In this document: piece by piece, positions 733 to 20,056 of the stretch | Position numbering within the stretch: position 1 is the stretch's first letter | Layout: every line of letters starts with the position of its first letter | Assembly: GCA_016841875.1 (NCBI GenBank) | Contig: JAENYG010000023.1 | Span: 1 to 57,336, forward strand | Source: Syntrophomonas sp. | GTDB lineage: Bacteria; Bacillota; Syntrophomonadia; Syntrophomonadales; Syntrophomonadaceae | Direction: 5' to 3' | DNA length: 57,336 nucleotides | Program-made: the position numbers and the translations under genes | Notes under the pieces: model-generated | Seen by the model: only the letters and a program-made list of their open reading frames with translations | Databases searched by the model: none | What the model was told of the DNA's origin: nothing

Positions 733-3534
733 TTACTTAACTTCGATAAAGTTTATATACTCTAAGAAACGTTTTAACATGACTGCACTCTGAGCCCGGT
801 CAGCATTGGTTCGAGGAGAAAAATCACCATTAGACATACCATTGATGATTCCGGCCTTGGCTGCCAGTGCCACATTTTTTTCGGCCCAAGGAGATATTGA
901 CTGTTGGTCTCCAAACCTGGCCAGATATGTTTCTTGTTCAGCATCAGACAGGTTGTTTTCTATCCCTGCCACGCGCGCGGCTCTGACTATCATTACTGCT
1001 ATTTCCTCGCGGGTTATATTATTAGTTGGTTTAAACAGCTGTCCATCATAACCGGTAATAATATTTTCCGCTACCGCAGTTGCTACGGCGCCAGCATACC
1101 AGGCATTAACATCAACGTCTTTAAATTGTCCTTCTTGTAAAACTCCTTCTTCTAACCCCAGTGCTCTCACCAAGAGGGTGGCAAATTCTGCCCGCGTTAT
1201 ACTGCAATTAGGTTCGAAGGAATTAGCACTTTTACCATTGACCAGCATTTTGGAACTGAGTAGTTCAATATCATTCTTAGCCCAGCTATTCTGGATATCA
1301 GCAAAAGTCTTGCTCGATTGCAATACCGTGTACAGGCTATTGCTCCGGCTGAATATGGCTGCATATTCTTTCCCATCCAAGGTCTCAAAGAGTGTAGGTA
1401 ATGGCAGGAATTTACCGCCGGCTTCATTCCAAACTACGCCTACCGCCTGCCTTGGATTAGCAGCTTTGTTCAGCACCAGGTCTCGCTCTACATATGCACC
1501 GCCAAAATAGCTGTACTCTATTTTTCCTCCGCCAGGTGCTGTAACTTCTACTGTGAATTGGATAGGGTCGGCCAGCATCTGCTGTCCGGGCTGGAGTTGC
1601 CCCATCAAATCATTCCTGTCTTCCTCGCTCGCCCGTGAAATCACTATGCTTAAAGTGAGCTCTTCCAATTTCACCCCTAGACGGGCAGCAGCTTCTTCAA
1701 GGTTTATAGTGTCTAACGGCAGAGTATACTTTCCTATTAGGGTATCTATTCCTAGAGGCATTCCCTTTTCTTTTGCTTTTTGCAATACAGTCGCGGGAAT
1801 TTGAACTCGTACTTCATCAGCATTAGCGGTTGATATGACCGTTACCCTGCTGCCCGCAACTCCATTTTCAATATCACTTAAAGCACCTTCTTGCACCACA
1901 ATTTGCTCTCCGGTGCGGCTATTATCAAGGCTTAATAACTCCCGCCTCAGATTAGTCTCGCTTATTGGCAGCATCGTTAATGCTGATGAGGGCGTAACCT
2001 GTGGTACGGATACGGGTTCTGGAATTGGAGCTCCGCCACCTCCAGGAAGGTTAGCACCAACCGTGAAGGTTAAGCTCATAACATCACTATTGTATTGGCC
2101 TCTGCCTATGGCTAAAGCCTTTATTGTGGTTGTTCCGGTTATTTCAACCGGCTCCTCCACGCCCTGTTCCGGTCCACATCCATGTAGATTGAATATATCG
2201 CTGTCCATATCCGGAGTGCTGCCATCGGTAGTGTAATAAATTCTAGGCACCGCACTGCTGTGTTTGAGATATATCAGGGACCCGCTGGGTACTGGACCAC
2301 CCTGGGTGGCAACTTTTATTTTGGAATCCGGGGTTACGATTAAGGCCGTGGGACAATCCCACTCATCCGGATCATCTGTGCTTACAGTTATCACGCTCAG
2401 CTTCTTGGCAAAATACAAAAGGGTTTGATCAGTTTCAGCTCGCTGACCATAAACCAGTACCGGTATATCATCATCCGTCATATCGTCATAATCAGACGAT
2501 CCTTCCGCCCGCAATAAGGCTATGATCGGCTCTACCCTGGTCTTTTCCGGGAATATATAACGGGGTTGTGCAAATAGCTCATACATTGTGAATTCGACAT
2601 CAAAGGTATCAGTAGCCTGGAATTCGATTAGCTTGGCTTTACTCCAATTTATACCTGCTTGGTTCAACAAGGTTTTCAGTGGCACACCTTCAACTGCCAT
2701 ATCTAAATCTTGCGGCCGGTCACTGGTCACAGATAATACGGTTCTGGTCTGCTTCATATTTTGAAGATCCTCCAATGAATAAGAAACAGGGTTAGATACT
2801 CCATTACCATTAATGGTTAGAAAATCCCCGCTGTCTCCTCCACCAGAGCCACCACCACCAGGACTCCCTGATGAATTAACAATAAACTTGCTGGTCTGGG
2901 CAGCAGTCATTCCATACCCGGTGATGTAAATAGTATATTCACCTGCAGCTGCATCTTGGGATAAAGTAAACCCGCAGGTAAAGCTGTTGTTTTCTATAGT
3001 CGGCTGGGTTACATAAACTCGTCCATTGTCACTGTTACGTACGCATATAGCCAGATAATTTATGTTTTCAGCCGTACCAGCTATTTCCACCACGTCTCCA
3101 GCATCAAATTCCTCATCTGCCGACGGCGTTACGATATCCACAACCACTTTGAGGTCACTTATCAGAATAATCCGTTTTTTAACTTCGGAGAGTCCCAATC
3201 CGCTAAGTGAGATGGTATATTCCCCTTCAGCTGCATTGGAATCCAGGGTAAAGCTGGTGGTAAAAATACCGTCATTTACCTGAGGCTGGGCTGTAAATAC
3301 CAGACTATCCTGCTCACTTCTTACTGTTATCGAAACTTCTGCCAGTCCCTGAGCGGTACCGCTGATCTCAACCATACTTCCCAGTCCAAACACCTGACGG
3401 GAAGTGGGCGAGGTAAAGTCGGCCTGGATATCATTCGCAGCAGTGGCAGACAGATTAATACCTAACATAGTTAACGATATGGCCAGCACCATAAAGATGC
3501 TCAGTAATTTCCTCTTATTTCGATGTATCTTCAT
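733..3534 (-). CDS. SLH-domain surface protein with pterin-oxidoreductase-like and chitobiase-C-like domains
   Basis: 933 residues. A Sec signal peptide (residues ~1-33) is followed by two ~90-residue Ig-like repeats that share FTSPTSRQVF/IVTPSADEEF and GEYTI signatures, then a Gly/Ser-rich linker near 220. Residues ~235-400 resemble the oxidoreductase molybdopterin-binding fold (GVPLKTLLNQAG), but the loop that carries the Mo-ligating Cys in real enzymes has no Cys here. A chitobiase/hexosaminidase C-terminal type motif (IYYTTDGSTPD) follows near 435. The last ~180 residues hold three SLH repeats (FADIQNSWAKNDIELL; WYAGAVATAVAENIITGY; ISPWAEKNVALAAKAGIING) that should anchor it to secondary cell-wall polymer. 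The start has AAGGGAG seven bases upstream. It lies 39 bp behind the 557-residue gene, which carries the same two domain types, so an operon is likely. Confidence 0.85.
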   Translation of the reverse strand: MKIHRNKRKLLSIFMVLAISLTMLGINLSATAANDIQADFTSPTSRQVFGLGSMVEISGTAQGLAEVSITVRSEQDSLVFTAQPQVNDGIFTTSFTLDSNAAEGEYTISLSGLGLSEVKKRIILISDLKVVVDIVTPSADEEFDAGDVVEIAGTAENINYLAICVRNSDNGRVYVTQPTIENNSFTCGFTLSQDAAAGEYTIYITGYGMTAAQTSKFIVNSSGSPGGGGSGGGDSGDFLTINGNGVSNPVSYSLEDLQNMKQTRTVLSVTSDRPQDLDMAVEGVPLKTLLNQAGINWSKAKLIEFQATDTFDVEFTMYELFAQPRYIFPEKTRVEPIIALLRAEGSSDYDDMTDDDIPVLVYGQRAETDQTLLYFAKKLSVITVSTDDPDEWDCPTALIVTPDSKIKVATQGGPVPSGSLIYLKHSSAVPRIYYTTDGSTPDMDSDIFNLHGCGPEQGVEEPVEITGTTTIKALAIGRGQYNSDVMSLTFTVGANLPGGGGAPIPEPVSVPQVTPSSALTMLPISETNLRRELLSLDNSRTGEQIVVQEGALSDIENGVAGSRVTVISTANADEVRVQIPATVLQKAKEKGMPLGIDTLIGKYTLPLDTINLEEAAARLGVKLEELTLSIVISRASEEDRNDLMGQLQPGQQMLADPIQFTVEVTAPGGGKIEYSYFGGAYVERDLVLNKAANPRQAVGVVWNEAGGKFLPLPTLFETLDGKEYAAIFSRSNSLYTVLQSSKTFADIQNSWAKNDIELLSSKMLVNGKSANSFEPNCSITRAEFATLLVRALGLEEGVLQEGQFKDVDVNAWYAGAVATAVAENIITGYDGQLFKPTNNITREEIAVMIVRAARVAGIENNLSDAEQETYLARFGDQQSISPWAEKNVALAAKAGIINGMSNGDFSPRTNADRAQSAVMLKRFLEYINFIEVK

Positions 3535-3573
3535 TTGTATTCTCCCTTCTTCACCATAGAGGCAGACCGATTA

Positions 3574-5247
3574 CTACTCCTCGATATCAAAGTTCAAGGT
3601 GTGATCGTCACTCCCCAATGGGTGATTATTGATGAAATTTTCCCAGACGAAAACGTCAACATATGCGGTTCCGCTCAGATCGTGGGGCAGGGTAAATTCA
3701 GCCCTTACTTTACCTCCATTCACATCTACTACCGTTTGGGCAGCTGTGCAAGCTATTACCTGGCCCCCGCTCATCATGCCAGCATCAGTTCCACCGCGCA
3801 CCTGGATTATCAATAAAGCATTTTTAATTGCATTTACTGCATTTACGGTATCGACTTCAATACAATATCCTCCCCCAGGAGCCACCGAAGTTATTGATGA
3901 ACCATTATAATCCAGCAGCTGCACATCACTGATGGTAATCTCATCATCCACATTAACCAGTTCAATGGCATTCACATACTTTAAGCGATTAAGACTTACA
4001 TCGCCATCATCAAGGCTGCGTAATATTTGAATTTTTACAGTTTCATCTCCCGATACATCAGATAGTTCTGCTCCATTTACTTCATAAGCCAGCAAACACT
4101 GCTGGTCTCTTATGTCCTGCACCGTGCCGCCGGCGAATTCTTCACCGGTGACAGCAATGAAATTAACTTCCCAGTTGCTGGCGGCGCCAAGATCATCGAG
4201 CAGGGTGCTGAGCAGCACTCCGGTAGCATTAACAGACACCGACTGCCCATTATCCAGGCATTGATAATTCCCCTGGGCCGGGGTCATCGCTTTCAAAGTT
4301 TCCACAGTATATTCAGTATCAATACCAGCGCCTTGCACTGTGCAGGCTAACGACCCCAGGTCATAGTTGAAAGTAATGACATCACTATCCAGTTTTCCCA
4401 GACCGACAGCCCGGGCCTTGATTGTGACCGGTCCATCAATCGGTATAGGTTTATTAAACCAGGGCCGAAAAGTTGGGTAACTGATATTGTATATATTGCT
4501 ATGTACAGTGGGTTCGCTCCCATCCAGGGTGTAATATATCTTGGTGTGCCATAGGGAACCGTCCCCGTACTGCAGTTCTACTTCAGTACCCGGGATTACT
4601 GAACCTGAGTCAGGATAAGCATCAGGAGTATCCCACTGGGTCGGTTCTTCACAAGTTACTTCGATCGTACCCCCATCGAGAATCGGACTGAACTGCTCCC
4701 CGTTGCAGGCAGTCGGTTCCAGAGGGTCCCACTGACCGTAAATTAGTTTCCCATTTTTCATATCAGCAATCATAGTAGGAACTTCTACAGCTCCTTCCCA
4801 TCCCCGGCCTTCCGGGGGCCAAACCGAACAGTCACTGCCATCTTCTCCCTCGGGAAAATAATATCGCGGCTCGTCCAATAGGTCTCTTCGGGTATGGTAG
4901 CTGTACGACATATCAGCCCCTTTGATCTTGATCATGGTGGCTTCATCTTTGATCCCCCCGGCCAGATCAAGAAGGGTTTGCAACGTAACTCCGGTGGTAT
5001 CCTTAAAAATCTGCAGAGATGGATAGAAATTATATCCCGAATAATCATGGGTTTCATGCGGCAGGGCTTCATATTCTGCCGCGGTAAGCTGTACCGTTTT
5101 TTCTACTCCGTCACCTTTTATGGTTAATATTATCTCATCTTCGGCTAACACTGCTGGTGCTGCGATGGCCAGAAAGCTGAAAATTATACTCAAGGCCACT
5201 AAACCAGCCAGCAGTTTGTTAAAACTGAAATTACTGAATTTTATCAT
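3574..5247 (-). CDS. secreted protein with two pterin-oxidoreductase-like domains and a chitobiase-C-like domain
   Basis: 557 residues with a Sec signal peptide (cleavage near VLAEDE) and no SLH repeats. Residues ~36-200 and ~300-425 each resemble the fold of the sulfite-oxidase/YedY molybdopterin domain: TTGVTLQTLLDLAG in the first, ATGVLLSTLLDDLG and AYEVNGAEL in the second. The second copy keeps a Cys (GNYQCLDNGQ) just before the GV-L-LL motif, where Mo-ligating Cys sits in the enzyme family; the first copy does not. Between them lies a chitobiase-C-like segment (IYYTLDGSEPT, ~245). There is no twin-arginine signal, so folded export with Moco loaded is unlikely, and a non-catalytic or ligand-binding role is equally possible. 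AAGGTGG precedes the ATG. The gene is 32 bp behind the 342-residue SLH gene and shares domains with the next gene downstream. Confidence 0.82.
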   Translation of the reverse strand: MIKFSNFSFNKLLAGLVALSIIFSFLAIAAPAVLAEDEIILTIKGDGVEKTVQLTAAEYEALPHETHDYSGYNFYPSLQIFKDTTGVTLQTLLDLAGGIKDEATMIKIKGADMSYSYHTRRDLLDEPRYYFPEGEDGSDCSVWPPEGRGWEGAVEVPTMIADMKNGKLIYGQWDPLEPTACNGEQFSPILDGGTIEVTCEEPTQWDTPDAYPDSGSVIPGTEVELQYGDGSLWHTKIYYTLDGSEPTVHSNIYNISYPTFRPWFNKPIPIDGPVTIKARAVGLGKLDSDVITFNYDLGSLACTVQGAGIDTEYTVETLKAMTPAQGNYQCLDNGQSVSVNATGVLLSTLLDDLGAASNWEVNFIAVTGEEFAGGTVQDIRDQQCLLAYEVNGAELSDVSGDETVKIQILRSLDDGDVSLNRLKYVNAIELVNVDDEITISDVQLLDYNGSSITSVAPGGGYCIEVDTVNAVNAIKNALLIIQVRGGTDAGMMSGGQVIACTAAQTVVDVNGGKVRAEFTLPHDLSGTAYVDVFVWENFINNHPLGSDDHTLNFDIEE

Positions 5248-5279
5248 TGCTGTCCACCTTCCTAATAAAATTTCAAGTT

Positions 5280-6308
5280 CTACCTGGAGTTAAGCGTGTT
5301 CATGATGAGTGTGACCGCTTCACCCCGGGTTGCATATTTCAGCGGATGAATAGTGTTATCAGAATATCCCTGCATGAGCCCTTCCCGAGTCATAGTTGCG
5401 ATTGCTTCCCGGGCCCAAACGGATATATCAGCACTGTCATCAAAGTTAATCTCTCCTATACCTCCTTCCAGTCCAGCTGCTCTGACTATCATCACCGCCA
5501 TCTGTTCTCGAGTAACAGGATCATTCGGTCCAAAAGTATCAGCATCATATCCATTGGCCACCCCACTGGCTACCGCTGCGGCAATGTGATTCCGGGCCCA
5601 GTGATTTACTGTATCCTGGAAAGTAATATTACCCTGTTGATTCAGGCTAAAAGCCTTCACCAGTACGGCAGCAAATTCGGCTCTGCTGATAGTATTATCA
5701 GGCTTGAAACTGCCGTCGGGATAACCATTTATTGCTCCCAGAGCCACCAGTTGGTTGATGCTGCTGATAGCCCAGTGACCGTTGGTATCATTGAATTTCT
5801 GCGACCCGGTAGATGTTGTGGCACCAGGTTCACTGTTTCCGGTAACCGCTTCGGGGTTAGGGCTTACTCCCCCTCCGCCACCGCCGCCGGTGGCAGGACT
5901 TGATCCCCCGGGTGTATTTCCGCCGCCAGGCTGAACTGATGGGCTGTCCTTGCTCACCCCGAAAGTAAATTCAAGGGGTGCACCTAAACCTTCTGCCCCG
6001 ATCTTTATGGTATAGGTACCTTCTAAAGCATCGCTATTAAGCTGAAATCCAGTCGTAAAAGCACCGTTTAATACAGACGGCTGTGCTACATAGGCTATAC
6101 TTCCTTTAGAGTTAAACACTATCAGCGACACCTGCTGTACGTTTTCTGCCTGCCCGCTGATTTCAACATCGTCTCCCGGGCTGAAGGTCTGTGAAGAAGC
6201 TGGTGAATCCAGGCTTACTGATACTTCAATATCTTCAGCAACACAGATCCCGGTAAAAAGTAGACAAATAATTGATACTATAACTGAAACCGTAAATATC
6301 TTTTTCAC
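5280..6308 (-). CDS. small SLH-domain cell-surface protein with one Ig-like domain
   Basis: 342 residues from a GTG start with GGAG five bases upstream. A signal peptide ends near ICVAED. Residues ~27-125 form one Ig-like module homologous to the repeats of the 933-residue protein (SLDSPASSQTFSPGDDVEISGQ and GTYTIKIGAEGLG). A Pro/Gly-rich linker with a run of glycines follows, and then three SLH repeats fill residues ~165-342 (GHWAISSINQLVALGAINGY; HWARNHIAAAVASGVANGY; SVWAREAIATMTREGLMQGY). It is the first gene after the array of minus-strand riboswitch-like RNAs and terminators, whose nearest terminator ends about 165 bp upstream, so it should be the promoter-proximal gene of this surface operon. 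Its ligand is unknown. Confidence 0.88.
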   Translation of the reverse strand: MKKIFTVSVIVSIICLLFTGICVAEDIEVSVSLDSPASSQTFSPGDDVEISGQAENVQQVSLIVFNSKGSIAYVAQPSVLNGAFTTGFQLNSDALEGTYTIKIGAEGLGAPLEFTFGVSKDSPSVQPGGGNTPGGSSPATGGGGGGGVSPNPEAVTGNSEPGATTSTGSQKFNDTNGHWAISSINQLVALGAINGYPDGSFKPDNTISRAEFAAVLVKAFSLNQQGNITFQDTVNHWARNHIAAAVASGVANGYDADTFGPNDPVTREQMAVMIVRAAGLEGGIGEINFDDSADISVWAREAIATMTREGLMQGYSDNTIHPLKYATRGEAVTLIMNTLNSR

Positions 6309-6471
6309 TCTATCTCCATCCTTTCCCCATATTTTTAAATGCTTTCCTGTGCTAATGCCCTATCCTCCTCCTTTAACCTTCAAATACCCCAACGTATAAT
6401 ACTGAACCTTGCGGTGAATATGATAATATTTAATCCTCTACCCTCCCTGTTTTCTATTGCTATCCATAAAC

Positions 6472-6507
6472 AAAAAACATCCGCCTGAAGGGATACAGGC
6501 AGATGTT
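6472..6507 (-). terminator. intrinsic terminator after aptamer copy A
   Basis: On the minus strand AACATCTGCCTG and CAGGCGGATGTT form a 12-bp stem (one G-U) around an 8-nt loop, followed at once by six T. It lies directly downstream of aptamer copy A and ~165 bp before the first surface gene, as expected of the expression platform of a transcription-terminating riboswitch. Confidence 0.85.
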
Positions 6508-6520
6508 AACAATCATTCCT

Positions 6521-6630
6521 GATACTCCTTTCCAAATGCGGGAGGCAGCAAAATTTCTCTTACCACCCTCGGGTTTTTGCCCTGGCTGCTAAACCATAGA
6601 TAAATCTTTAGGGTTAACAACTCGGAGTTA
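6521..6630 (-). ncRNA. Moco/Tuco-type riboswitch aptamer, copy A
   Basis: Read on the minus strand. A closing stem ACTCC/GGAGT brackets the element. Inside are a helix with the 11-nt tetraloop-receptor-like halves CCTAAAG and TATGG, a short GGG/CCC hairpin, a helix capped by a GAAA tetraloop (GGTAAGA-GAAA-TTTTGCT), and the conserved 3' segment CCTCCCGCATTTGGAAAGGA. GAAA loop plus receptor, and the presence of the same RNA before the modABC-like operon, point to the molybdenum/tungsten cofactor riboswitch class (RF01055 as I recall it). No covariance model was run. It precedes SLH and pterin-oxidoreductase-like surface genes. Confidence 0.75.
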
Positions 6631-6787
6631 TTATGCTTTTTTTCAAGTAACACACTAATAGATATAAGGTTAGTGCTTTTTATCATGCAACGGTTTTGAT
6701 AAGTATAATACTTGGTGTAGTGCAGTGATTTAGTATATTTTTTTATGTATGGTTTTATTTATCTCCTTCGGTCGTTGGGTTACACAC

Positions 6788-6827
6788 AAAAACCTTCTGC
6801 CAGAAACGGGTACAGGCAGAAGGTTTT
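6788..6827 (-). terminator. intrinsic terminator after aptamer copy B
   Basis: On the minus strand AAAACCTTCTGCC pairs with GGCAGAAGGTTTT over a 13-nt loop and runs into a T tract. It is immediately downstream of aptamer copy B, the same arrangement as in copies A and C. Confidence 0.85.
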
Positions 6828-6836
6828 AACTATCCT

Positions 6837-6946
6837 GATACTCCTTTCCAAATGCGGGAGGCAGTAAAATTTCTCTTACCACCCTCGGGTTTTTGCCCTG
6901 GCGGCTAAACCATAGATAAATCCTTAGGTTTAACAACTCGGAGTTA
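6837..6946 (-). ncRNA. Moco/Tuco-type riboswitch aptamer, copy B
   Basis: Nearly the same sequence as copies A and C, with the CTCCGAG 5' segment, receptor-like TATGG, GAAA-capped hairpin and GGAAAGGAGTATC 3' segment all present on the minus strand. Differences from A and C fall mostly in loops and in the G/A of the small hairpin (GCCGCC, GCAGCC and GCAGTC variants). The ~170-bp spacer between copies is also homologous, so the whole aptamer-terminator-spacer unit was duplicated. Confidence 0.75.
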
Positions 6947-7091
6947 TTATTCTTTTTTTAGTTGAGTTTTCAGCATAAGGTTAGTGCTTCATATCGTGCA
7001 GTAACCTTGGATAAGTATTATATGTAGTGTAGTGTGACGTTTTTGGGTATGTTTTTTATGTATAGTTTTATTCATCTCATTTGGTCAAAAC

Positions 7092-7132
7092 AAAAAACTT
7101 CTGCCAGAAACGGGTACAGGCAGAAGGTTTTA
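7092..7132 (-). terminator. intrinsic terminator after aptamer copy C
   Basis: On the minus strand AAAACCTTCTGCC pairs with GGCAGAAGTTTTTT, with the T tract forming part of the lower stem. It follows aptamer copy C directly. Confidence 0.82.
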
Positions 7133-7140
7133 GCTATCCT

Positions 7141-7250
7141 GATACTCCTTTCCAAATGCGGGAGGCAGTAAAATTTCTCTTACCACCCTCGGGTTTTTGC
7201 CCTGACTGCTAAACCATAGATAAATCCTTAGGCTTAACAGCTCGGAGTTA
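7141..7250 (-). ncRNA. Moco/Tuco-type riboswitch aptamer, copy C
   Basis: Third near-identical minus-strand copy. It has CTCCGAG at the 5' side, CCTAAGG and TATGG receptor halves, a GAAA-capped helix and the CCTCCCGCATTTGGAAAGGA segment. Copies A, B and C start 316 and 304 bp apart. Confidence 0.75.
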
Positions 7251-7314
7251 TTATTCATTTCGATGTTCTAGAGTCAGGTCCGACCCCTAAATATGCTTAA
7301 ATATGTCCATAAAC

Positions 7315-7354
7315 AAAAAACTCCTGCCTGGAAAGATCTACAGTCAGAAGTTTT
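7315..7354 (-). terminator. intrinsic terminator after decayed copy D
   Basis: Minus strand: AAAACTTCTGACTG pairs with CAGGCAGGAGTTTT (one mismatch, one G-U) and is followed by TTG. It has the same position and related sequence as the terminators of copies A to C. Confidence 0.7.
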
Positions 7355-7366
7355 ATATAATATATT

Positions 7367-7474
7367 GGTACTCCCTATTCTGGCAGGGAATTTTCTTTCT
7401 CTACCATTCTATATGAAAATACCCTGACTACAATCCCCAAACTATATCTCTCGATTAATATTCTGCTCTGAGCG
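7367..7474 (-). ncRNA. diverged Moco/Tuco-type aptamer, copy D
   Basis: On the minus strand this promoter-proximal element keeps GCTCAGAGC at the 5' side, ATAGAATGG in the receptor position, GAGAAAG in the tetraloop position and GGGAGTACC at the 3' side. The CCTCCCGCATTTGGAAAGG core is changed to CCCTGCCAGAATAGGGAG. It may be a decaying copy or a variant with altered ligand preference. It retains its own terminator. Confidence 0.45.
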
Positions 7475-7870
7475 AAATTTTTCCGTATACTACGTAAATC
7501 AATCAGAAGTTAATCTTTTTTGTTATATTGGTTATATTTACATATTCCACTTTGATTTCCAAATATCCTTTAATATACGGGAATTTTAAGGATTTTTTTC
7601 CCATAGTTCTATAGGGCTTATAGCTCTCTCAATATAAATCTCAAGTCCCAGCTTTCAGATATTATAGCTCATTTATCCCATTTATCATTTACAATCTATC
7701 TTCTAAATAAATACAAATAATACATTTTAAAGTTGTTATTTTGTCTTATTTTTAGTTTTATGGCAATATTCTGTTTTATTGTGAAAATTTTTACATTAAT
7801 TTATTTACAATTCCAATCGAGTGCGTTATCTTAATTATTAGGATTACCATAATAAAGTTAACAAAATATT
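7475..7870. promoter_or_regulatory. AT-rich divergent promoter region between the two riboswitch arrays
   Basis: About 400 bp with no credible ORF. On the plus strand TTTACA (7804-7809) and TATCTT (7827-7832), 17 bp apart, form a plausible sigma-A promoter ending ~30 bp before aptamer E. The minus-strand promoter for copies D to A must lie here too, but I could not pick one hexamer pair with confidence. The remainder is AT-rich filler. Confidence 0.5.
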
Positions 7871-7983
7871 CACCTCCGAGCCTTTTTGCCTACGGGATTC
7901 TATGGCAACCTGGCCTGAGCTTACAGCTCACGGGCTGTAGGAGAAATCCTGCAACCTCCCGCATTTGGAAAGGAGTACCAGGA
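7871..7983 (+). ncRNA. Moco/Tuco-type riboswitch aptamer, copy E (modABC leader)
   Basis: Plus strand. CTCC (7873-) pairs with GGAG of GGAGTACC. A GCC...GGC helix carries the CCTA/CTATGG receptor-like halves, a TGAGC/GCTCA hairpin follows, and the helix TGTAGGA-GAAA-TCCTGCA is a perfect GAAA-capped stem. The CCTCCCGCATTTGGAAAGGAGTACC-type 3' segment matches the minus-strand copies base for base over most of its length. Being in front of a molybdate/tungstate transporter supports a Moco or Tuco ligand. Confidence 0.8.
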
Positions 7984-7997
7984 AGAATTTGTTTTGC

Positions 7998-8035
7998 AAT
8001 GCTTCTGTGCTCTTTTGCGTGCAGAAGTATTTTTT
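7998..8035 (+). terminator. intrinsic terminator after aptamer copy E
   Basis: ATGCTTCTG pairs with CAGAAGTAT (one G-U), and the stem is followed by a T tract. It lies 15 nt after the aptamer. Confidence 0.85.
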
Positions 8036-8117
8036 ATTTTCTTTCTAATGCGCCTAACGAAGTGCATGAATAATTATTGCTTAATCTGGCTTGAAAATAT
8101 ATATAAACTGAATATTC

Positions 8118-8226
8118 AACTCCGAGCCTTTTTGCCTACGGGATTCTATGGCAATCTGGCCTGAGCTTTCAGCTCACGGGCTGTGGGAGAAATCCTGCAA
8201 CCTCCCCTATTTGGAAAGGAGTACCA
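8118..8226 (+). ncRNA. Moco/Tuco-type riboswitch aptamer, copy F (modABC leader)
   Basis: Second plus-strand copy, 247 bp after copy E. It has the same CTCCGAGCC start, CTATGG, TGAGC/GCTCA hairpin, GAAA-capped helix and GGAAAGGAGTACC end. The few differences from copy E (for example CCTCCCCTATTT for CCTCCCGCATTT) are mostly in single-stranded positions. Two switches in series would give a steeper or more complete shut-off of modABC. Confidence 0.8.
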
Positions 8227-8243
8227 GGAAGAATTTGTTTGCA

Positions 8244-16428: not shown

Positions 16429-19395
16429 CTATTCTGATATTTGTAGAGCCCGGCTGATCATTATTAGTGCCTCGGCCCGGGTAGCGTTGTTCTGGGGCCC
16501 GAAGGTATTGTCTTCATATCCTAAAATAATGCCATTAGCAAAGCAGGCATTAACTGCGTTCACAGCCCAGGGAGATATTTTGCGGCTATCGTTAAAGGAA
16601 TTCCCCCCTGCAGCATCCGCTAATTTCGCTGCCTTCATAAGCATTACTGCTATCTGTTCCCGGGTTATCAAGTCGTTCGGGCCAAAGGTACTGCTGTCAT
16701 AGCCATTAACAATCCCATATCCTGCTGCTGTTGATATGGCCTGCCTGGCCCAGTGAGAAGAAGTATCAGCAAAGATATTCCCATCCCTGGACTCCAGGGC
16801 GAAGGCTTTTACCAGCATAGTTACAAATTCTGCCCGGGTGATAGTCTGGTCCGGTTTAAAACTGCCATCCGGATAGCCGCTCACTACACCCCGGTCAACT
16901 AGCGCCTGGATACTTTCCCCGGCCCAATGTCCATTAATATCGTTTAACGGATTTGTGACAGGACTGGTGGCAGGACTGGCGACATCCTCTGTTTCAACCG
17001 TTACCGGTTCATTTTCGGTATCAGTTGATGTGTAAGAACCTTCAGATTTAGTAGTAAATTTAAATTCGTATTCCTCTCCAAGAGTGCTGCCATTATTAGC
17101 TGTAATGTCCTGGCCAAGTTCCACAATATAAGTTGTGGAAGGTTTTAGATCATCCAGGGTAAGGATTAGCTGGCGAATTTTGTCTCCGGTTGCTGTCTGC
17201 CCCTCTTTTTTATATTCACTACTATAAGACACCGATTTACCTGAGCTTCTTTCATAGATTTCAATCTGTTCCAGGTTAGAATCCATGTTTTCATCGATGC
17301 CCTTGCTAAAATCAAGATGCAGTACGGTCTGATCCGCGTATAATGAGACTGCGGCGAACTCTACTGTCATGCCGCCGCCGGTATTAGGTTCTGGATCACC
17401 ACTATTATCGTTTTCGTCACCTTCAGTTGGAGGAGAGCTGGTAGTAAAGGTCCACAGGTGGTTCAGCCACAGCTTATCCCCGTTATTGGCTTCTATATCG
17501 TTTGCCAGTTTTAACTTGTAGGTAGTATCTGATTCCAGGGTGCAGCTGCTGAGGATGAATTCCAGTCTCCGCAGCTTCGTAGGAGTTGTTTGCTTAGTAT
17601 ATTTAAAATCGCCCAGTTCTATGATGTCGCCGGTGATCTCTTCCTGGGTCAGTGTTCCCCGGTCAATATCTACCACGGTTCCATCACTTTTCTTCAGCGT
17701 AATTTTATCCAGGTTGCTGACCAGTTTCTCATCCATGCCGTTGCTGAAATCCCATACAAAATGTATCCCATCGGGCTCCAGTTGGCTGCTTACCTGGTAT
17801 TCCACTTTGGAAGCATCAACCGCTTCGGTGGAAGCAGGGCTGTAGGATGAAATAGTGAGCTGCCCGGCGGTTGTTGCTGTAGTAACCGGCCCGTTGTCAG
17901 TCCATGCATCAGATGCATCCCCTGCTTCTACTTTGAATTCATAGGGAGTCTTGGCGGTCAGACCAGTTACGTTATATGACAGCTCACTCCCGGCCAGGGT
18001 TTGAATTTCATTACCATCCTGGTAGACTTTATAATTGGCTGCATTATCGGCAGCTGTCCAGGTCAATGTCAAAGTGCCAGGGGTGATGTCAGCAGCTGTT
18101 ATTTGACTTCCATCCGGCCAGGATACAGGTCCGCTTTCTGCTGGCGGATCAACCGTATCTGAGCTGGTGGTAAATGTCCACACGTGGTTCAGCCACAGCT
18201 TATCCCCGTTATTGGCTTCTATATCGCTTGCCAATTTTAACTTGTAGGTGGTGTCTGATTCCAGGGTGCAGCTGCTGAGGATGAATTCCAGTCTCCGCAG
18301 CTTCGTAGGAGTTGTTTGCTTAGTATATTTAAAATCGCCCAGTTCTATGATGTCGCCGGTGATCTCTTCCTGGGTCAGTGTTCCCCGGTCAATATCTACC
18401 ACGGTTCCATCACTTTTCTTCAGCGTAATTTTATCCAGGTTGCTGACCAGTTTCTCATCCATGCCGTTGCTGAAATCCCATACAAAATGTATCCCATCGG
18501 GCTCCAGTTGGCTGCTTACCTGGTATTCCACTTTGGAAGCATCAACCGCTTCGGTGGAAGCAGGGCTGTAGGATGAAATAGTGAGCTGCCCGGCGGTTGT
18601 TGCTGTAGTAACCGGCCCGTCGCTAGTCCATACCCCATCTGCATCCCCAGCTTCAACTTTGAACTCGTAGGGAGTCTTGGCGGTTAGACCAGTTACGTTA
18701 TATGACAGCTCACTCCCGACCAGTGTCTGAATTTCATTACTATCTTGATAGATTTTATATTGTGCTGCATTTTCAGCAGCTGTCCAGGTCAGGGTCAAAG
18801 AGCCGGGGGTGATACTGGAAGCCGTTATCTGGCTTTCCGCCGGCCAGGAAACAGGTCCGCTGTCTCCAGGGCTTTCCTCCTCACCGGCCGATGAGGCAGT
18901 AGTAAAGTACCAGGTATAAGTTTTTCCCAGAGTACTGCCGTTGTTGGACATGATATCAGGACCCAACTCAACAATATATTCCGTATCTGGCTGAAGCTTA
19001 CCGCTGTCAACCATAGTTAATTCCAGCTGTCTCAATTTAACTGGCTCATTCTGCTCAGTATAAACTAGCTCCTGGTCATAATTAATGACAATATCATCCC
19101 CACCTGCGGCTTTAAGAGTAACTTCTTCCTTATTCGCCTGCAGGTAGGTATCTAAACCGTTGCTGAAATTCCAGACAAAAGATACATTTTCGTAATCGGC
19201 CAGATCATTCACCTGGTAGACTACCTGGGTCTCTCCACTGCTGGTCAGCTCGGCTGCCGGTGACGTTAGTGCAACAGTTAAGTCACCTACCCCTGCATCA
19301 ACTGATACTGGTGCAACCACCATATTGAAAACCATTAGAAATAATACCAGGCTTATAATATTTATAGCCCAACTAGTCTTTCTTTTTATATACAA
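16429..19395 (-). CDS. large SLH surface protein with Big_5-like and fibronectin-III-like repeats
   Basis: 988 residues from a TTG start with GGGAGGG seven bases upstream. A signal peptide ends near SVDAGVG. The ectodomain alternates Big_5/SbsA-like Ig domains (signatures HFVWDFSNGMDEKL, LRRLEF, EANNGDKLW ... WTFTTS) with fibronectin-III-like modules (LTLTWTAAENAAQYKIYQ, GLTAKTPYEFKVEAGDA). Three SLH repeats close the protein (residues ~805-988: GHWAGESIQALVDRGVVSGY; HWARQAISTAAGYGIVNGY; ISPWAVNAVNACFANGIILGY). One Fn3-Big_5 unit of 242 residues is duplicated almost exactly. A Moco/Tuco-type aptamer with terminator lies upstream, as for the 342-residue SLH gene, so the two loci are probably co-regulated. 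Function beyond cell-wall display is unknown. Confidence 0.9.
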   Translation of the reverse strand: MYIKRKTSWAINIISLVLFLMVFNMVVAPVSVDAGVGDLTVALTSPAAELTSSGETQVVYQVNDLADYENVSFVWNFSNGLDTYLQANKEEVTLKAAGGDDIVINYDQELVYTEQNEPVKLRQLELTMVDSGKLQPDTEYIVELGPDIMSNNGSTLGKTYTWYFTTASSAGEEESPGDSGPVSWPAESQITASSITPGSLTLTWTAAENAAQYKIYQDSNEIQTLVGSELSYNVTGLTAKTPYEFKVEAGDADGVWTSDGPVTTATTAGQLTISSYSPASTEAVDASKVEYQVSSQLEPDGIHFVWDFSNGMDEKLVSNLDKITLKKSDGTVVDIDRGTLTQEEITGDIIELGDFKYTKQTTPTKLRRLEFILSSCTLESDTTYKLKLASDIEANNGDKLWLNHVWTFTTSSDTVDPPAESGPVSWPDGSQITAADITPGTLTLTWTAADNAANYKVYQDGNEIQTLAGSELSYNVTGLTAKTPYEFKVEAGDASDAWTDNGPVTTATTAGQLTISSYSPASTEAVDASKVEYQVSSQLEPDGIHFVWDFSNGMDEKLVSNLDKITLKKSDGTVVDIDRGTLTQEEITGDIIELGDFKYTKQTTPTKLRRLEFILSSCTLESDTTYKLKLANDIEANNGDKLWLNHLWTFTTSSPPTEGDENDNSGDPEPNTGGGMTVEFAAVSLYADQTVLHLDFSKGIDENMDSNLEQIEIYERSSGKSVSYSSEYKKEGQTATGDKIRQLILTLDDLKPSTTYIVELGQDITANNGSTLGEEYEFKFTTKSEGSYTSTDTENEPVTVETEDVASPATSPVTNPLNDINGHWAGESIQALVDRGVVSGYPDGSFKPDQTITRAEFVTMLVKAFALESRDGNIFADTSSHWARQAISTAAGYGIVNGYDSSTFGPNDLITREQIAVMLMKAAKLADAAGGNSFNDSRKISPWAVNAVNACFANGIILGYEDNTFGPQNNATRAEALIMISRALQISE
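17457..18890 (-). repeat. 726-bp internal tandem duplication in SLH gene
   Basis: Sequence from about 17457 recurs 726 bp further on (from about 18183), nearly base-identical for the Big_5-encoding part and slightly diverged over the Fn3-encoding part. 726 bp is exactly 242 codons, so the frame is kept. Confidence 0.85.
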
Positions 19396-19613
19396 TGTTA
19401 AGCCCTCCCTTTTTGCTTTCTAATACAATCCCTAAAAATATATTCAAACCTTATGGTTGAACTCTAATTTAATTGAAGATCTCCCCTCCTTCAGTCCCTG
19501 CTCGACTTTTTATCTTTTTATCATCCAGGGTATGATAGTATTTAAGCACGGGTTATTGCCAATCTAGATAACAAAAAGGCCAGCTGCGCAATTCAACTAA
19601 CCTTCGGTATGAT

Positions 19614-19641
19614 TAAAAAGCTAAACCGTTAAAGGTTTAGC
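19614..19641 (-). terminator. intrinsic terminator upstream of the SLH gene
   Basis: Minus strand: GCTAAACC and GGTTTAGC form a perfect 8-bp stem over a 6-nt loop, followed by TTTTT. It sits ~25 nt after aptamer G and ~220 bp before the TTG start of the 988-residue SLH gene, so it can act as the switch's terminator. Confidence 0.85.
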
Positions 19642-19663
19642 CCATATGCATACATAATAACTT

Positions 19664-19764
19664 AGCCAATTTCCTTTCCGCACTGGGAGGCACAGCCGTT
19701 TCCAACTCTACCCTGCCGGCCCAGGGACCATCGTCATGCGCATTAGGCCCAAAGGCTCGAAAAT
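19664..19764 (-). ncRNA. Moco/Tuco-type riboswitch aptamer, copy G (SLH gene leader)
   Basis: Minus strand. GAGCC and CCTAATG...GATGG occupy the positions of GAGCC and CCTA...TATGG in copies E/F; CCCTG/CAGGG is the middle hairpin; AGTTG-GAAA-CGGCT is the GAAA-capped helix; and GCCTCCCAGTGCGGAAAGGA matches the conserved 3' segment. The closing helix differs in sequence (TTTC with GGAA rather than CTCC with GGAG) but still pairs, which is covariation in favour of a real RNA of the same class. The rest of the 19396-20056 gap shows nothing further that I can support. Confidence 0.65.
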
Positions 19765-20056
19765 CGTTATCCTTTTTTATGGTTTTTTGTCCTATTATCA
19801 GTTTCGACAAAATCGAATTAATTCCTTGTTCCAGCGAATAGTTTTTTATCCTGAGTCAAAAGTACAGGTCCTTTAATCATTTCAGCCAATTTCCATTATT
19901 AGCTGAACAATATCTTATAACCTTTATATTTAGCCATTCAGGAAGCATAAAGTGAAATAATATGCATAATCATCTTATATCCCTTGCATAATTGTGGACA
20001 TATGTTCCTCAATTTCAACTATTTACATATGCCAGATTGAGAACCGGCCCCTCGAC

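Follow-up and report, generated by a model that had tools for sequence, protein, structure and literature searches.

The window that we analysed, i.e. the whole stretch of 57,336 nucleotides from Syntrophomonas sp., carries on its minus strand a gene for a secreted 988-aa protein with three SLH domains, preceded by an RNA element that is here called copy G. The initial annotation had described a 988-residue SLH gene downstream of this RNA and a terminator, and this arrangement was confirmed, with the start at 19395 and the SLH domains recognised by Pfam. Translation begins at a TTG codon behind a good ribosome site (19410-19403), 260 nt downstream of copy G. Four Big_5-like modules alternate with fn3 domains in the protein, the SLH triplet is located at the C terminus, and the N terminus is hydrophobic, as judged by eye in the translation. 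The features of the locus are listed below.

19655..19774, minus strand: copy G, P3-less Moco/Tuco riboswitch aptamer (RF01055 covariance match, five-copy model and covariation)
19678..19690, minus strand: conserved aptamer core CCTCCCAGTGCGG, predicted antiterminator strand (folding of growing transcripts)
19640..19650, minus strand: predicted antiterminator partner TGCATATGGGC, overlapping the 5' arm of terminator 1 (folding prediction)
19615..19643, minus strand: intrinsic terminator 1, GGGCTAAACC...GGTTTAGC TTTTT (hairpin -12.4 kcal/mol)
19572..19604, minus strand: intrinsic terminator 2, AAGGTTAG...CTGGCCTTTTTG (hairpin -12.5 kcal/mol)
16429..19395, minus strand: 988-aa secreted SLH protein, monocistronic here (Pfam SLH 7e-48, fn3 5e-21, Big_5 2e-16)
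18892..19284, minus strand: Big_5-like module 1
18160..18588, minus strand: Big_5-like module 2, predicted Ig fold (pLDDT 96)
17434..17862, minus strand: Big_5-like module 3, 99% identical to module 2
17044..17385, minus strand: Big_5-like module 4
16468..16947, minus strand: three SLH domains, cell-wall anchor

The module sequences gave no meaningful match in the PDB. With the predicted structure of module 2 the fold search returned generic Ig/CopC/SbsC-like matches only (Z 9; Foldseek best E 2e-3), and therefore no function was read from the fold. No NEAT domain was detected in the Pfam scans or among the listed fold matches, and the NCBIfam model inl_like_NEAT_1 matched the SLH end only, far below its cut-off. 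A molybdopterin domain was likewise considered for the 988-aa protein and rejected, as Pfam found none in it; PF00174 occurs only at the other SLH locus of the window.

The RNA leader and its proposed switching

The structured RNA that had been proposed in front of the 988-aa gene is real and runs from 19774 to 19655 on the minus strand; rather than something new, it is the known Moco/Tuco riboswitch RF01055. Rfam matched it over the full length with 55.5 bits (E 1.2e-10, cut-off 36 bits), and a covariance model built from the other five window copies alone recovered copy G with 34.8 bits (E 1.7e-8), so that the failure to recover it, which the initial annotation had named as a refutation, did not occur. 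The GAAA loop and the CCTCCC...GCGGAAAGGA segment are both present, as had been noted, and we regard the identity of copy G as a Moco/Tuco riboswitch as secure.

The compensatory exchange in the closing stem, CTCC/GGAG to TTTC/GGAA, was also borne out, with every pair kept. P1 of copy G is formed by GATTTTC (19765-19759) paired with GGAAATT, i.e. AUUUUC/GGAAAU compared to ACUCC/GGAGU otherwise. In an alignment of 29 related aptamers, columns 13/108 (C-G in 16, U-A in 12) and 15/106 (C-G in 16, U-A in 8, U-G in 5) covary. Covariation over these relatives was 0.411, compared to 0.205 after shuffling (reached in 0 of 500 shuffles); 86.4% of the cells in P1, P2 and P4 were paired, with double changes in 21 of the 31 pairs, and sliding the partner by one column lowered the paired cells to 49% or less. 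The P1 variant UUUUC/GRAAA of copy G is common to RNAs from about ten other genomes that head operons for a membrane-anchored Big_5 protein (Big5TM) and a FecCD permease. These RNAs (L105, L123, L124, L134 and others, alignment A8) form a sequence subclass with P1 GUUUUC/GAAAGRAAAC and the loop AUGCGG, which is usable as a marker for the Big5TM-FecCD system.

Behind copy G the initial annotation had recorded a single terminator. This hairpin with its T run (19643-19615) was confirmed, but a second one at 19604-19572 had been missed, and both recur in the leader of the orthologous gene in a genome of the same genus (G001). There the equivalent of terminator 1 has -13.2 kcal/mol, and terminator 2 has U-A and C-G at the positions of two G-U pairs of the copy-G leader. 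Leaders of RF01055 are expected to carry a terminator or a ribosome-site platform before W/Mo-related genes, and at copy G two terminators were found. When growing transcripts were folded, a pairing was predicted between the aptamer core CCCAGUGCG and UGCAUAUGGG, a segment that contains the terminator 1 5' arm. The predicted duplex has -10.3 kcal/mol in copy G and the homologous one -12.2 kcal/mol in G001; because 4% and 5% of shuffled linkers, respectively, do as well, this core-linker antiterminator pairing is suggestive only. A longer antiterminator of the P2 5' strand with the linker was considered for copy G and discarded, as G001 conserves the shorter core-linker pairing but not this one.

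As the terminators and the alternative pairing recur in the orthologous leader and RNAs of this class repress in E. coli (PMC2408646), we infer that copy G is an OFF switch of transcription. Binding of the cofactor would let the aptamer fold, and the two downstream terminators would then stop RNA polymerase. When the cofactor is scarce, the core would instead engage the linker together with the terminator 1 5' arm, so that terminator 1 could not form and the 988-aa SLH gene would be transcribed.

Stem P3 and the proposed cofactor class

Seven copies of the RNA had been counted in the window, of which Rfam recognises six. The other five copies and the genes behind them are as follows.

7129..7259, minus strand: P3-containing Moco-class copy, first of a triple (87.8 bits; P3 gap 16 nt)
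6825..6955, minus strand: P3-containing copy, second of the triple (82.9 bits)
6509..6639, minus strand: P3-containing copy, third of the triple (80.2 bits)
733..6308, minus strand: operon behind the triple (Pfam SLH, Oxidored_molyb and CHB_HEX_C_1)
5280-6308, minus strand: 342-aa SLH protein of this operon
3574-5247, minus strand: 557-aa Oxidored_molyb/CHB_HEX_C_1 protein of this operon
733-3534, minus strand: 933-aa SLH protein with weak Oxidored_molyb of this operon
7862..7991, plus strand: P3-containing copy before modABC (80.3 bits; P3 gap 17 nt)
8108..8237, plus strand: P3-containing copy before modABC (85.7 bits; P3 gap 17 nt)
8481..11191, plus strand: modABC molybdate importer (SBP_bac_11, BPD_transp_1, ABC_tran with TOBE)

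An Rfam search at E up to 5 found no further RF01055 copy in 6400-8400. Between the two riboswitch arrays, at 7310-7440 on the minus strand, a sequence resembling a truncated 3' aptamer remnant with its terminator was noticed by eye, for which Rfam reported nothing. Proteins similar to the SLH/Oxidored_molyb (sulfite-oxidase-type) proteins of 733-6308, with Shr-like_HID, are found behind RF01055 in G006 and G031. Two P3-less copies have been described before 'sulphite oxidase' genes of Syntrophomonas wolfei (PMC2408646), and the Oxidored_molyb SLH proteins of 733-6308 may be the 'sulphite oxidases' noted there in 2008.

The RNAs at the two SLH loci of the window had been taken to be the same. 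This identity was ruled out, as the triple before 5280-6308 contains stem P3 (Moco type) and copy G does not: only 5 nt separate P2 from P4 in copy G, compared to 16-20 nt in the P3 copies, and all five other window copies have P3. P3-less RNAs have been proposed as sensors of the tungsten cofactor, a proposal that is itself unproven (Regulski et al. 2008, PMC2408646). With P3 absent, copy G is likely to belong to this proposed Tuco class, and the two SLH loci of the window probably answer to different cofactors. In the genome of the window, P3-less copies precede WtpA (above the NCBIfam curated cut-off), a TupA-like protein (sub-cut-off) and all Big_5/MolB-like units, and one stands before an importer whose binding protein is of the ModA-family type (SBP_bac_11); P3 copies are found before modABC and before the Oxidored_molyb operon. 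Having P3 and P3-less copies kilobases apart in one genome, before molybdate-type versus tungstate-type genes, makes for a natural test case of what was proposed in 2008. Additionally, the formate dehydrogenase/MoeA operon on contig C34 of G000 (L019 3189-3607) has one P3-less and one P3 copy side by side, a heterotypic tandem that was kept in each of the five genomes examined from the genus (units U02, U12, U22, U28 and U62) and could gate the operon on both the W and the Mo cofactor.

Two other readings of copy G were weighed. It has the lowest RF01055 score of the six window copies, as would befit a chance match or a degenerate aptamer without function, but this reading is hardly credible and is already refuted computationally: a chance RNA was excluded by the match to the five-copy model, by the strong covariation and by a score of 92 bits in a family-specific model (of which copy G is itself a member), and copy G with its P1 variant and both terminators is kept in G001. 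It is also conceivable, though we consider it unlikely, that copy G senses Moco or both cofactors, that the absence of P3 reflects lineage only and that a single molybdenum regulon spans the whole window. The P3 rule is a correlation to which S. wolfei has exceptions, and deletion of P3 from the E. coli RNA abolished regulation and did not switch specificity (PMC2408646); the P3-less copy before the SBP_bac_11 importer also fits a Moco sensor. The distribution described above, with P3 copies before modABC and the Oxidored_molyb operon and P3-less copies before the WtpA, TupA-like and Big_5/MolB-like units, speaks against it and for the Tuco assignment.

Riboswitch units in the genome and its relatives

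The genome of the window (3.97 Mb, 90 contigs) has 18 RF01055 copies in 13 units, and in four of these units the first gene encodes an SLH protein: the 988-aa protein behind copy G, the 342-aa protein behind the window triple, a 3,508-aa fn3/RCC1/SLH protein on contig C39 and a 460-aa Big_5/fn3/SLH protein on contig C15. With about 26 SLH genes in the genome, the probability that at least four of them stand first in the 13 units by chance lies between 1e-6 and 3e-6 (for an assumed 3,000-4,000 genes), a figure given for this genome alone because the typing of first genes elsewhere was incomplete. The association with SLH genes that had been claimed from two loci is thus beyond chance, with four independent loci at P of about 1e-6, and it recurs across the order and outside it. 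The genome-wide search also returned Mo/W genes (fdh, mod, tup, wtp and mobB), which had been anticipated together with further surface genes, the remaining units including formate dehydrogenase with MoeA, Mod/Wtp/Tup-type importers, MobB, a HypA/NiFe-hydrogenase operon and a Big_5/FecCD importer. The name 'surface-protein regulon' does not fit, as most units are genes for W/Mo transport, cofactor and W/Mo enzymes; the protein behind copy G goes together with a MolBC-like importer, so that the surface genes appear to form the outer part of a regulon for metal uptake.

Some of these units deserve mention in their own right. In G000 a P3-less copy (C14:234985-235105, L027) precedes a HypA - CobW/HypB-like - NiFe hydrogenase operon, and such operons stand behind P3-less copies in six genomes (also units U07, U19, U27, U37 and U47; fully typed in G000 and elsewhere by their leading genes). 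These operons may serve to exchange W-dependent formate dehydrogenase for hydrogenase at low W cofactor. Giant surface proteins of 3,100-3,900 aa with Big_5 modules occur behind one to three RF01055 copies (L020 1251-11777, with many fn3 and RCC1 repeats besides; L057 1386-13103; L149 3711-13001), and a c-di-GMP-I riboswitch (L107 242-330) lies about 4 kb upstream of a triple Moco/Tuco array on contig C16 of G002.

The 988-aa SLH gene is monocistronic in the genome of the window, and the functional link is therefore carried by its relatives. In G001 the orthologue (70% identical) is followed in one operon by Big5TM and a FecCD permease. A single riboswitch in G006 heads Big5TM, FecCD permease, ATPase, PBP_2 binding protein and an SLH/Big_5 protein, and in G267, from outside the order, the riboswitch is followed by a 1,025-aa SLH/Big_5 protein, Big5TM, FecCD permease, ATPase and substrate-binding protein (SBP). 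Loci that combine SLH/Big_5 proteins with Big5TM-FecCD-type importers were likewise found in G004, G044, G066, G051 and G054; in G066 and G051 such a locus contains one riboswitch for the SLH gene and another for the importer. It was found that SLH proteins of the copy-G kind are co-located with Big5TM and a FecCD importer in G001 and at least six other genomes. In the genome of the window itself, the importer and Big5TM are encoded on contig C13 behind their own P3-less copy, and the SLH gene stands apart behind copy G.

Genes with strong Big_5 modules, i.e. at least 90 bits to the copy-G module profile, lay in riboswitch-headed units in 11 of 13 cases (12 genomes); all strong matches did so in seven genomes and three of five in five further genomes. 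A genome scan with module alignment A3 gave two loci only. Big5TM-type matches were present in 42 of the 63 genomes of the order. Among 33 full-length Big5TM genes of the order three were cut by a contig edge, and 26 of the remaining 30 had the RNA in the operon, as tallied by hand with operon extents inferred from spacing and strand; many of the relatives are fragmented MAGs. The four Big5TM genes without the RNA were three from the genus of G059, in clusters that lack FecCD, and one in L143, where 1.5 kb upstream was covered. SLH-Big_5 or Big5TM loci without a riboswitch numbered three, in G059 and G066. Outside the order 13 genomes had Big5TM, and seven loci carry the RNA.

Two further components were observed around these operons. 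One is a protein of about 250 aa, similar to TiaS and methanogenesis marker 11 at scores below cut-off, that was met repeatedly in the MolBC-like operons as well as behind other RF01055 copies (L106 6831-7589, L149 13734-14492, L166 862-1605, L021 12743-13492). In some genomes an ECF-type importer replaces MolBC beside Big5TM and RF01055 (L108 574-5277; L173; L174); its parts are ATPases, a T subunit, a 151-aa protein and an S-like protein of 194 aa (S 72% conserved), and it is possible that it imports tungstate or molybdate.

A candidate surface route for tungsten and known systems

Among proteins of solved structure, the FecCD permease was closest to HI1471 (MolB) at 6e-74, followed by a hemin permease at 2e-49 and BtuC at 4e-40. 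For the SBP, HI1472 (MolA) was matched at 7e-25, second to 4ovk (3e-29), a periplasmic binding protein whose entry does not state a substrate; Ni/Fe-annotated proteins match the SBP as well, and similarity to IsdE and enterobactin binding proteins was sub-cut-off. NCBIfam assigned no equivalog to the importer, so the substrate is one that we infer: the MolB-like permease together with the P3-less riboswitch points to tungstate or molybdate. The known MolBC-A system imports molybdate, and MolA binds tungstate as well (PMC4031551). The model of the Big5TM ectodomain (pLDDT 93.5) superposed on CopC with Z 13.1 and 1.6 A over 96 of 97 residues; its best score against Pfam CopC (PF04234) was 22.2 bits, just under the cut-off of 23.3, and Big_5 passes its own.

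Based on these comparisons we consider it probable, with a good deal of room for doubt, that copy G is a P3-less OFF riboswitch on the wall-level SLH part of a MolBC-like tungstate/molybdate uptake system. Low tungsten cofactor would switch on this surface component. The SLH protein on the wall would capture the oxyanion or a chelate, and the metal would pass via Big5TM to the SBP and importer; the partners encoded on C13 are Big5TM (membrane-anchored, CopC-fold), the MolB-like FecCD permease, the ATPase and the substrate-binding protein. By analogy, an Isd-like surface relay for W and/or Mo can be drawn, from SLH-Big_5 capture over a CopC-fold carrier to MolA-like and MolBC-like proteins under repression by the Tuco riboswitch. 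We put this relay forward tentatively, with somewhat less than even confidence; if true, it would to our knowledge be the first pathway in which a metal oxyanion is acquired by wall-anchored proteins. W/Mo enzymes, e.g. formate dehydrogenase, are central to syntrophic, methane-forming communities. An uptake function would give S-layer-type proteins a testable role in metal acquisition and bears on the extracellular capture of trace W/Mo oxyanions by Gram-positive cells.

The importer and surface proteins might handle another ligand that is relevant at low cofactor, such as heme, Ni, a pterin or a metal complexed by a metallophore. Chelates are the usual cargo of FecCD/PBP_2 systems, the SBP has the resemblances to IsdE, enterobactin binders and Ni-annotated proteins given above, and an ECF-type importer takes the place of MolBC beside Big5TM in some genomes. 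We nevertheless judge this improbable, though worth keeping in mind, since the permease is far nearer to MolB than to the hemin and B12 permeases and the riboswitch class points to W/Mo. The SLH protein could also be structural or adhesive and merely co-regulated with W/Mo status, binding no metal, for example by remodelling the envelope for contact between syntrophic partners while W-dependent formate dehydrogenase is at work. Modules such as Big_5 and fn3 commonly and typically serve as spacers or in adhesion, giant fn3/SLH proteins of 3,500-3,900 aa have the same riboswitch and module, and S-layer SbsC domains are among the module fold matches. This reading seems rather improbable to us: the module is also present in the membrane-anchored partner of the importer, the SLH protein and the importer share a locus in at least seven genomes, and an OFF switch would have the protein made at low cofactor, which fits scavenging better than W-dependent metabolism.

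RF01055, its P3-less class and its high copy number with tandems in S. wolfei are published (PMC2408646). When S. wolfei was grown on butyrate, a tungstate-uptake permease and a 140-kDa surface-type protein were both induced (PMC3582634). In the open-licence literature, outside which most subscription journals lie, we found no paper that joins the Moco riboswitch with S-layer or SLH proteins, or RF01055 with a MolBC-like system with surface parts.

Copy G shares the aptamer core, P1, P2, P4, the terminator platform and the P3-less subclass with the known Moco/Tuco riboswitch, and differs in its target, an SLH-anchored surface protein of a MolBC-like system. High-affinity ABC importers for Mo and W are usually counted as three families (ModABC, WtpABC, TupABC), and more may exist (PMC6147048). 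The candidate system would have the metals and, in the genome of the window, has the riboswitch class in common with these families, which are not known to have wall-anchored surface components. ModABC, WtpABC and TupABC are Type I importers. The likeness of Big5TM to the CopC family of extracellular copper carriers (PF04234) is one of fold, from which we read no function, the ectodomain superposing on CopC and scoring under the CopC and above the Big_5 cut-off in Pfam. In architecture the closest analogue is the Isd/NEAT relay with BslK of Bacillus anthracis, an SLH-anchored heme-binding protein (PMC7759979). Common to both are a wall-anchored protein, a membrane-anchored Ig-fold protein, an SBP and a FecCD importer, a similarity of design and not of membership; the Pfam scans detected no NEAT domain here, and the expected ligand is W/Mo instead of heme. 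MolBC-A (HI1470-1472) is a type II importer of molybdate/tungstate (PMC4031551), in which MolB is the nearest relative of the permease and MolA is related to the SBP; the system described here differs in being Gram-positive, in its additional membrane-anchored CopC-fold protein and SLH proteins, in its control by a riboswitch and in the TiaS/methanogenesis-marker-11-like protein that often accompanies it.
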